Below are positions 43,605-46,312 of a stretch of DNA of 64,000 bases, piece by piece (positions within the stretch are counted from its first letter, which is position 1; the number at the start of each line of letters is the position of its first letter). The stretch comes from Arcticibacter eurypsychrophilus. GTDB taxonomy: Bacteria; Bacteroidota; Bacteroidia; Sphingobacteriales; Sphingobacteriaceae. A program made the translations under genes and the position numbers. The stretch is taken from the NCBI RefSeq assembly GCF_001730525.1, contig NZ_MDFN01000001.1:62001-126000 (forward strand), given 5' to 3'. The notes under the pieces are model-generated. The model made no database searches, was not told the origin of the DNA, and saw only the letters and a program-made list of their open reading frames with translations.

Positions 43605-44141
43605 TCAAATAATCATAGTAACTATAAAATGATTCAATCCGGTTATCGGATCTATCCGATAAGAGACATGGTTAGAAGATTTAATTAGAATAAGCAAACC
43701 GTAATGTTCATATAAACTTGCCACTTCCTCTTTAAAATATAAGGGGTATTCCACTACTTTAAAAACAAGGGAATGAGCTGAATCAATTATACCGTATAAG
43801 CAATAGAGTGCATCTTTACGTATTTCTACTTGCTGCCCTTCGAAAGAGACATGTAATGGAAAACTTCCACATTTATTCAAGTAGAAAGAATTTCCGTTAT
43901 CTGTTTTCACGATAGTTACTTCCTTTTCGGTAATTTCGATCGAAAACAGACTACTATCAGCACCAGCATGTTTAACCGCATTTGTTAATAGTTCGACTAA
44001 AACATGCTGATAAGGAATTAATCTATCTTTGGTGGATAAAGCAGGGATATTATCTTTAATGTATGAAATAATTTCATTCATTAAAGAAAATATCTCCGCT
44101 GTCTTATTATTAAAATTAAAAGTTTTTTTTATTGACATCAC
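43605..44141 (-). CDS. HATPase-domain protein, RsbW/SpoIIAB-like serine kinase candidate
   Basis: A 178-residue protein with one GHKL-type ATPase domain. The N-box is HVLVELLTNAVKHAG, the G1 region TDNGNSFYL, and the last third (EHYGLLILIKSSNHVSYRID) matches the G2-like end of anti-sigma kinases, although the glycines are reduced. It lies 12 bp after a STAS gene and downstream of a PP2C phosphatase, the RsbU-V-W order. The expected sigma factor gene is absent next to it, so its target is unknown. Confidence 0.75.
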   Translation of the reverse strand: MMSIKKTFNFNNKTAEIFSLMNEIISYIKDNIPALSTKDRLIPYQHVLVELLTNAVKHAGADSSLFSIEITEKEVTIVKTDNGNSFYLNKCGSFPLHVSFEGQQVEIRKDALYCLYGIIDSAHSLVFKVVEYPLYFKEEVASLYEHYGLLILIKSSNHVSYRIDPITGLNHFIVTMII

Positions 44142-44153
44142 GACATATAAACT

Positions 44154-44495
44154 TTAGGCAATCCAGCCAGCTTGATAAGAGCCAGGTAAATCTTTAAAAA
44201 CTTTAAAGACCTTATTCATTCTTATTAATTCAAAAAGTTGGGAAATATTTTCATTCAAACCGTATACGGCAATATCCCCACCTATAGCCATGGCATGTTT
44301 TAAAGAAGTTACCAATGCACCTAAAAAAGAACTGTCTATATAATTTACCTCTTCAAATGAAATAAGAATATGAGTATGACCAGCATCGAGCTCGTTGATT
44401 AATTCTTGTTTAAAAAGATCAGACTGTTCCATATTAGCTTCTGCAAACTTAATTTTAGCAATATAGTAATTTTGATATGTTGTAATTTCAATCAT
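44154..44495 (-). CDS. STAS-domain anti-sigma-antagonist (RsbV/SpoIIAA-like)
   Basis: A 113-residue STAS domain: NYYIAKIKFAEANMEQSDLFKQEL and ILISFEEVNYIDSSFLGALVTSLKHA. The serine in IDSSFLG is at the phosphorylated position of SpoIIAA. The PP2C phosphatase is upstream and the candidate kinase downstream, so a phosphorylation switch is expected: kinase adds phosphate, the phosphatase removes it, and free STAS protein traps the kinase. Confidence 0.85.
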   Translation of the reverse strand: MIEITTYQNYYIAKIKFAEANMEQSDLFKQELINELDAGHTHILISFEEVNYIDSSFLGALVTSLKHAMAIGGDIAVYGLNENISQLFELIRMNKVFKVFKDLPGSYQAGWIA

Positions 44496-44505
44496 AATAT
44501 TTAAG

Positions 44506-44772
44506 TTAATATTGTTCTTCTACTTTCTGGATAAAAATAAGGCTTCGATCATCCACAACAGCCCTTTTGGGGCTATCCGAAAACATTTTCTTTTTTATTT
44601 GCATATATGTATCTTCTTTGCCAAGAACAGGTTTCAGTTTATTCAGAAATAGGTTATAATCAGTCTTCTTTCCATCCGATTCTTCAAAATCAATCATTCC
44701 ATCTGAAACAATAATCAATTGATCTCCTGTAGCTAATTTTAAAACGTCTTCTTCATATAATCCATCTTCCAT
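44506..44772 (-). pseudogene. 3' fragment of the receiver-PP2C phosphatase gene, displaced by a 122-bp duplication
   Basis: An 88-residue frame that starts MEDGLYEEDVLKLATG inside the second half of the duplication and continues through TDYNLFLNKLKPVLG to DDRSLIFIQKVEEQY. The first 41 residues repeat the end of the upstream frame; the last 47 are the missing C-terminus, including DDR with the last metal-binding Asp of PP2C phosphatases. The ATG at 44772 overlaps the upstream frame by 34 bp, so re-initiation could make this piece, but a working enzyme from two parts is unproven. Confidence 0.8.
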
Positions 44773-44894
44773 AGGTTATAATCAGTCTTCTTTCCATCCG
44801 ATTCTTCAAAATCAATCATTCCATCTGAAACAATAATCAATTGATCTCCTGTAGCTAATTTTAAAACGTCTTCTTCATATAATCCATCTTCCAT
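44651..44894. repeat. Perfect 122-bp tandem duplication inside the phosphatase gene
   Basis: Bases 44651-44772 and 44773-44894 are identical over the full 122 bp, with an AT dinucleotide shared at the joints. The length is not a multiple of three, so it shifts the reading frame of the gene on the minus strand. No mutation separates the copies, so the event is very recent, or it is an assembly or culture artefact. Confidence 0.95.
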
Positions 44895-45773
44895 AATTCC
44901 AAGAAGCAATCCATTTGACTGTATTGTACTCGTTATCCGTTCTGATTTTTGATAAAATATAATGGGTAAGTCGCCAGCACCAGCATAATAAACGCTGGAA
45001 GTAGTTTTATCTATGCGGAGGAGTGATAAAGTAGATAACACATCGCCCAAAACAGGATCCAAACAAACAATACGGTTTATTTTATTCAATATACTGGCTG
45101 GTGACAGGTTACCATCAAAAACGCAAAGGCGGATTGCTGAACGTATATAACTTAAAAAGTTAAATGAGAAGAACCATGCACCCCATTTTTTTCCCATTAC
45201 ATCGCCAAGAATAACAAATGTATCATTTTCATCTATGGCGATAAAGTCAATAAAGTCGCCACCCGGATAATGCTCATAAGTTTGATAAAGGAAATTTAAT
45301 TTAAAGCCATTTATTGCAGGGCTTTCCAAGGGAACAGATCTCAAGTTTAAGGCCTCTGCAGCAGCTCCGATTTCAAATAGAGATTTTTCATGTTGTTTAC
45401 GAATCGTATCCAATATGTTATTCAGCTTCGAAACAACAAGAGCAATAGGTGTATTTTTATCAATATAATCAATGGCCTGCATGTCCAACCCTTTTTGCAT
45501 TAAATCTTCATCAGCAAATGAGGTAAAAAACACAAAGGGAATATTTTTAAATTTATTATCCGTTAAGATCACTTTTCTAAATTCGAAACCATTCATTTCT
45601 GGCATGGAGTAATCAGATAGAATGATATCAGGAACATGATCAACAAGTATTTCCAAAGCCTCTTTTACAGAGTTGGCCGTGAAACATATAAAACCTTTAA
45701 GTACTAATGCCCTGCATATTAACTGAAGTATAAACCGATCATCGTCAACCAATAATATCTTCTTTACTATCAT
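44739..45773 (-). CDS. Response-regulator-fused PP2C (SpoIIE/RsbU-type) phosphatase, C-terminus cut by frameshift
   Basis: The receiver (about 1-120) has Asp10-Asp12 and phosphoacceptor Asp54 in LSDYSMPEM. The SpoIIE phosphatase domain (from about 165) has GGDFIDFIAID, GDVMGKKWGAW (a variant of GDVxGHG), YAGAGDLPIIFY and IIVSDGMIDFEE. After residue 334 the duplication throws the frame into WKMDYMKKTF and a stop. Joining the frames by removing one copy gives a 381-residue protein. The product shown lacks the final DDR metal motif and is probably inactive. Its start overlaps the coiled-coil gene stop (ATGA). Confidence 0.85.
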   Translation of the reverse strand: MIVKKILLVDDDRFILQLICRALVLKGFICFTANSVKEALEILVDHVPDIILSDYSMPEMNGFEFRKVILTDNKFKNIPFVFFTSFADEDLMQKGLDMQAIDYIDKNTPIALVVSKLNNILDTIRKQHEKSLFEIGAAAEALNLRSVPLESPAINGFKLNFLYQTYEHYPGGDFIDFIAIDENDTFVILGDVMGKKWGAWFFSFNFLSYIRSAIRLCVFDGNLSPASILNKINRIVCLDPVLGDVLSTLSLLRIDKTTSSVYYAGAGDLPIIFYQKSERITSTIQSNGLLLGIMEDGLYEEDVLKLATGDQLIIVSDGMIDFEESDGKKTDYNLWKMDYMKKTF

Positions 45774-46312
45774 TTCGATCTTTTTAAGCTTACCATGGAG
45801 TGAATGAATAAATATACTCCTGTAAACACGATTAATAAGGCTATTAAATCCATAAGGGTGACTCCATCATTTTGGCTAAAATAGAATACTGTAAACATTT
45901 CAAAATAGGGTGGAGCAGGCATAATTATCATAGCAAAACCGAGAACAATTAAAACCAAAGCTATAGCAATCAAGCTGATATTAGCCCCTCTATCCTTTAT
46001 TATAATTTTTTTTGAGTCATTACTGTCCAATTTATACTTAGATAAAAGCTTTTCCAGATCGTCTGCTATTTCAAACCTAGACATGGAAGAATCATCAAAT
46101 TTTTTAAATTCTTCAATCTCCTGAATAAAATTAGATTTTCGTTCAACAGCTTCATTGAACTTATTATGTATGTTTTTAATACTATCACTATCCAGTTCAC
46201 TATTTTCAAGCAAATTGATCAATTCTTCAAGTTTCTGATCTACAGAGACTTGAACATCATCAAGTTCCTGAAATTTCTTAATCTGATCATTTATACGCTT
46301 TGATTTTCCCAA
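45770..46312 (-). CDS. Coiled-coil membrane protein of the partner-switch operon
   Basis: A 180-residue protein of unknown function. Residues about 1-105 are charged and helical (KKFQELDDVQVSVDQKLEELINLL, NKFNEAVERKSNFIQEIEEFKKF), likely a coiled coil. Two membrane helices follow (ISLIAIALVLIVLGFAMIIM about 111-130, and LMDLIALLIVFTGVYLFIHS about 153-172). It overlaps the receiver-PP2C gene by 4 bp (ATGA) and so is the first gene of that operon. It might be the sensor or anchor of the switch, but this is inference from position. Confidence 0.7.
   Translation of the reverse strand: MGKSKRINDQIKKFQELDDVQVSVDQKLEELINLLENSELDSDSIKNIHNKFNEAVERKSNFIQEIEEFKKFDDSSMSRFEIADDLEKLLSKYKLDSNDSKKIIIKDRGANISLIAIALVLIVLGFAMIIMPAPPYFEMFTVFYFSQNDGVTLMDLIALLIVFTGVYLFIHSMVSLKRSK

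Follow-up and report, generated by a model that had tools for sequence, protein, structure and literature searches.

The question raised by this locus was whether a 122-bp sequence, doubled in the deposited genome of Arcticibacter eurypsychrophilus at a point where a phosphatase gene is broken, is doubled in the chromosome as well. The locus lies in a stretch of 64,000 nucleotides, here called the window, and the following features were found at the break (window coordinates).

44649..44770, no strand: copy 1 of a 122-bp direct tandem repeat, 100% identical to copy 2
44771..44892, no strand: copy 2 of the repeat, the identity continuing as ATA at 44893-44895
44739..45773, minus strand: truncated receiver and SpoIIE/PP2C phosphatase gene, RssB/RsbU-like (ORF list; Pfam Response_reg and SpoIIE)
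44506..44772, minus strand: C-terminal fragment ORF of 88 aa with the VVDDRS motif, corresponding to native codons 294-381

The sequence at 44649-44773 was found to be identical to that at 44771-44895, which gives an uninterrupted identity run of 125 nt at a period of 122 (sequence and repeat search of the window). The nucleotides ATA are common to both breakpoints as a microhomology of 3 nt, so that the copies can be written in any register from 44649 up to 44652. The exact tandem placed by a first-pass annotation at 44651-44772 and 44773-44894 was therefore confirmed in one of these equivalent registers. It was the only perfect tandem of such size found in the window by the repeat search, and chance cannot give 122 identical tandem bases.

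The length of 122 nucleotides equals 3x40+2 and therefore shifts the reading frame. The ORF at 44739-45773 (minus strand) was found to encode 344 aa, comprising 334 native residues followed by 10 frameshifted residues (WKMDYMKKTF), and the removal of one copy restores a protein of 334+47 = 381 aa, the same length as that of the sister species A. svalbardensis. The cut after residue 334, the length not divisible by three, the loss of the DDR motif and the restoration of 381 aa had all been proposed in the first-pass annotation and were borne out. In an alignment of 28 relatives, Asp 173, 191 and 317 were conserved and Asp 367 and 368 nearly invariant; the window ORF retained the first three and lacked Asp 367/368 together with the final strand. 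The C-terminal DD of the PP2C metal site, missing from the window ORF, was present in 52/52 relatives, and the Asp pocket of the receiver (D10/D11 and D54, with T84 and K106) was invariant or nearly so in the aligned relatives. The intact protein of A. svalbardensis was modelled (mean pLDDT 85.5), and the part of the model past the break comprised the last three helices together with the final strand of the beta-sandwich, which begins at residue 369, directly after the DD pair. As deposited, the gene should not yield an active phosphatase.

The solved structure closest to the modelled phosphatase was found to be Pseudomonas RssB (PDB 3f7a/3eq2), a REC-PP2C protein that likewise joins a receiver to a PP2C phosphatase and gave the best match in both sequence and fold. 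The identity to RssB was however about 20%, the score for the RssB equivalog NF045505 (NCBIfam) was 76 bits, well short of the required 700, and the phosphatase described here, unlike RssB, shares a conserved operon with genes for STAS and HATPase proteins. The other members of this four-gene module were the following.

45770..46312, minus strand: first gene, uncharacterised 180-aa protein with hydrophobic C-terminal segments, present in 52/52 relatives
44154..44495, minus strand: third gene, STAS, anti-sigma-antagonist-like (Pfam STAS; TIGR00377 score slightly under the cut-off)
43605..44141, minus strand: fourth gene, HATPase_c, candidate RsbW-like kinase (weak Pfam HATPase_c match, below the gathering score)

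The module at 43605-46312 (minus strand) thus reads 180-aa protein, REC-PP2C, STAS and HATPase, and this order was kept in 52 Sphingobacteriaceae loci, at about 3440-6040 of the relatives' loci. Gene by gene, the STAS gene was also present in 52/52 of the relatives and the HATPase gene in 49/52, and no credible family match for the 180-aa protein was obtained by Pfam and profile search. The joint encoding of a PP2C phosphatase, a STAS protein and a HATPase resembles the partner-switching systems RsbU/RsbV/RsbW and SpoIIE/SpoIIAA/SpoIIAB, from which the operon differs in that no sigma factor gene was found inside the module. A paper search found no description of this four-gene module in the literature.

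A comparison with relatives gave the single-copy form at 52/52 loci, all of them from other Sphingobacteriaceae species and not from strains of A. eurypsychrophilus. In each of these orthologues, A. svalbardensis included, the phosphatase gene was intact with the C-terminal DD conserved, and no duplication, remnant or break was found. The single-copy gene corresponds to the ancestral state. The closest relative at the locus was A. svalbardensis (about 95% aa identity in the phosphatase), against which dN/dS was 0.05 in codons 1-334 and 0.08 in the tail, with values of 0.04-0.12 in the neighbouring genes; dS was about 0.3-0.56, whereas the two 122-bp copies contained zero differences. By these values, purifying selection has acted on the tail past the break as it has on the remainder of the gene. 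The constrained tail and the identical copies therefore indicate that the gene is still in use or fell out of use only very recently, and an old duplication with a decaying pseudogene was rejected on the same values. A lineage-wide switch was likewise rejected, no orthologue being broken.

The copy number itself depends on how the sequence was assembled. The genome assembly contained 4,686,437 bp in 93 contigs, and A. eurypsychrophilus MJ9-5 was published with 4,687,084 bp in 97 contigs, assembled from HiSeq 2000 data by SOAPdenovo (K-mer 31) and then processed with SOAP GapCloser (PMC5435697). From the near-match in size, the sister species and K, we infer that the assembly analysed is that of MJ9-5. 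The gap of 647 bp and four contigs to the published figures fits the dropping of pieces below 200 bp, the smallest contigs seen being 209-278 bp. The identical prefixes common to the contig ends were at most 31 nt long, as K=31 predicts, and this overlap was found before the publication giving K=31 was read. Reads from the HiSeq 2000 have a length of about 100 bp, and in de Bruijn graphs built at K=31 from reads shorter than a repeat its copy number cannot be fixed. With reads shorter than the repeat, two copies within a contig can therefore come only from scaffolding or gap closing, and the tandem copy number in the deposited sequence is not a measurement.

Similar stutters were found elsewhere in the genome. 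In a tandem scan of 2.32 Mb (49% of the genome), exactly four near-identical (at least 95%) two-copy tandems with a period of at least 80 bp were found outside a CRISPR array, with periods of 113, 122 (focal), 126 and 139 bp. Independent events would be unlikely to give four periods as close together as 113-139 bp: P was about 6e-4 when periods were modelled as log-uniform over 40-2000 and about 5e-3 over 80-500, in a test that was post hoc, the cluster having been noticed first. The three other tandems were found in multicopy genes, each with a single-copy paralogue in the same genome (gene names from reading the ORFs alone).

C11:7483-7734: perfect tandem of 126 bp within a restriction-subunit-like gene whose paralogue (C11:14405-15247) is single-copy
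C11:61654-61880, a short way left of the window: tandem of 113 bp (98% identity), which frameshifts a nuclease-like multicopy gene whose paralogue on C15 is single-copy
C3:40921-41198: near-perfect tandem of 139 bp at the end of a GtrA-like gene whose paralogue on C66 is single-copy

The paralogue at C11:14405-15247 contained 43 bp extra adjoining its single copy of the 126-bp unit, and the stretches that the gene at C11:7483 has exactly in common with it were found to end at the duplication boundaries. In 1.1 Mb of the relatives, no near-identical tandem array with a period of at least 40 was found; one array of 87% identity was read as an older divergence.

The CRISPR array at C44:32420-37000, with the repeat CCCTTAATCGCACCGTACTGGAATTGAAAT, was found to contain clipped and stuttered repeats and chimeric or mixed spacers, with a single spacer unit occurring up to about six times consecutively. 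This array is probably misassembled, and published spacer counts would therefore be unreliable. Two further repeats were recorded in the genome: an imperfect 66-bp repeat at C3:64612-64989, which has GTTTCAAACTCGTTAGTTTCGA as its core and about six units, and a 63-bp coding repeat of 16 units (79% identity, ANKEL-type heptad-like) at C11:250281-251290, adjoining sensor genes, which looks natural.

Taken together, the clustering of the tandem sizes, the paralogue context and the lack of such tandems in the relatives indicate a shared technical cause, and on balance the doubled 122 bp is probably a product of the assembly that is absent from the chromosome. The scaffolding or GapCloser step of the K=31 short-read assembly would have written an overlapping stretch twice, and the real gene would be intact, encoding an ordinary receiver-PP2C phosphatase of 381 aa in a conserved four-gene partner-switch-like operon. 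It is from the method, in which SOAPdenovo at K=31 with GapCloser on HiSeq 2000 data cannot resolve the repeat, and from the comparable duplications in the same assembly, the scrambled CRISPR array included, that we infer the falseness of the focal second copy itself. An assembly error had rightly been among the options of the first-pass annotation. Known faults of assemblers include sequence duplicated where overlapping flanks stay unmerged, and an incorrect number of repeat units (PMC7111523). On this reading the locus resembles such local errors in its short duplicate at a join, its wrong tandem number and the broken frame of a constrained gene; it differs from them in having no remaining N gap and in that its duplicated sequence occurs nowhere else in the genome. 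Our literature search found no report on GapCloser tandem errors in particular, the support being general, and in one benchmark GapCloser gaps, where fully closed, were accurate (PMC4515008), which speaks against an artefact.

The focal site also differs from the other three tandems, which have paralogues, in that no second copy of the 261-bp focal stretch was found in the whole genome, the longest other exact match being about 15 nt. A dispersed repeat therefore does not explain a graph break there and was rejected as its source. A strong hairpin was not found either, the DNA folding worse than its shuffles, and a hairpin-caused drop in coverage was rejected; the search of the site thus gave no source, repeat or otherwise, for a break in the graph. 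This unique context would suit a real recent tandem duplication, mediated by microhomology or slippage in the sequenced strain or culture and inactivating the phosphatase, since a genuine tandem would by itself make a cycle in the K=31 graph, and a gap, exactly at this point. Such an event is possible, though less probable than an assembly error. The loss of function would then be passive or selected in culture, and revertible by recombination incidentally, not as an evolved switch. Perfect identity with exact head-to-tail copies and 3 nt common to the breakpoints fits microhomology-mediated tandem duplication, although the junction is here known from the assembly alone. The low dN/dS of gene, tail and neighbours (0.04-0.12) since the split from A. 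svalbardensis is as a very recent event predicts, and real repeats of this size could be preferentially kept by the assembly. Against a real duplication, its period falls within the narrow 113-139 bp cluster whose other members lie in paralogous genes, K=31 with short reads cannot establish two copies, and it was seen in none of the relatives.

The first-pass annotation had further suggested a reversible off-switch, for which no positive evidence was obtained. It is very unlikely that copies come and go at a rate sufficient to toggle the partner-switch operon, with selection maintaining the duplication; that it is real in a part of the population, with gain and loss of the 122-bp copy toggling the operon, is judged slightly less likely still. 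Tandem repeats of about this size are expected to be unstable, and the exact loss of one copy would return the native 381-aa frame. However, there are two copies only, the site showed neither a recombinase gene nor a dedicated repeat, the duplication would seldom arise again from 3 nt of microhomology alone, and neither the repeat nor a seed of it was conserved in the relatives, whose 52/52 orthologues were unduplicated and intact; the published method moreover leaves the copy number unfixed. A split active enzyme, in which translation would restart at the ATG at 44772, 33 nt ahead of the end of the truncated ORF, and the 88-aa fragment bearing the lost motif would complement the truncated protein, is hardly credible, because the two pieces overlap by 41 residues, the lost part gives the last beta-sandwich strand and the sequence contains no sign of re-initiation.

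If the duplication is false, as is favoured here, a spurious pseudogene is removed, and the reference assembly is shown to be untrustworthy for short tandem repeats and for its CRISPR array. If it is real, it represents a recent loss, in a glacier isolate, of a regulator that is intact in the 52 relatives compared. Without the phosphatase the STAS protein would then stay phosphorylated, and the HATPase protein would, by analogy with RsbV/RsbW systems without RsbU, be free to hold its target.
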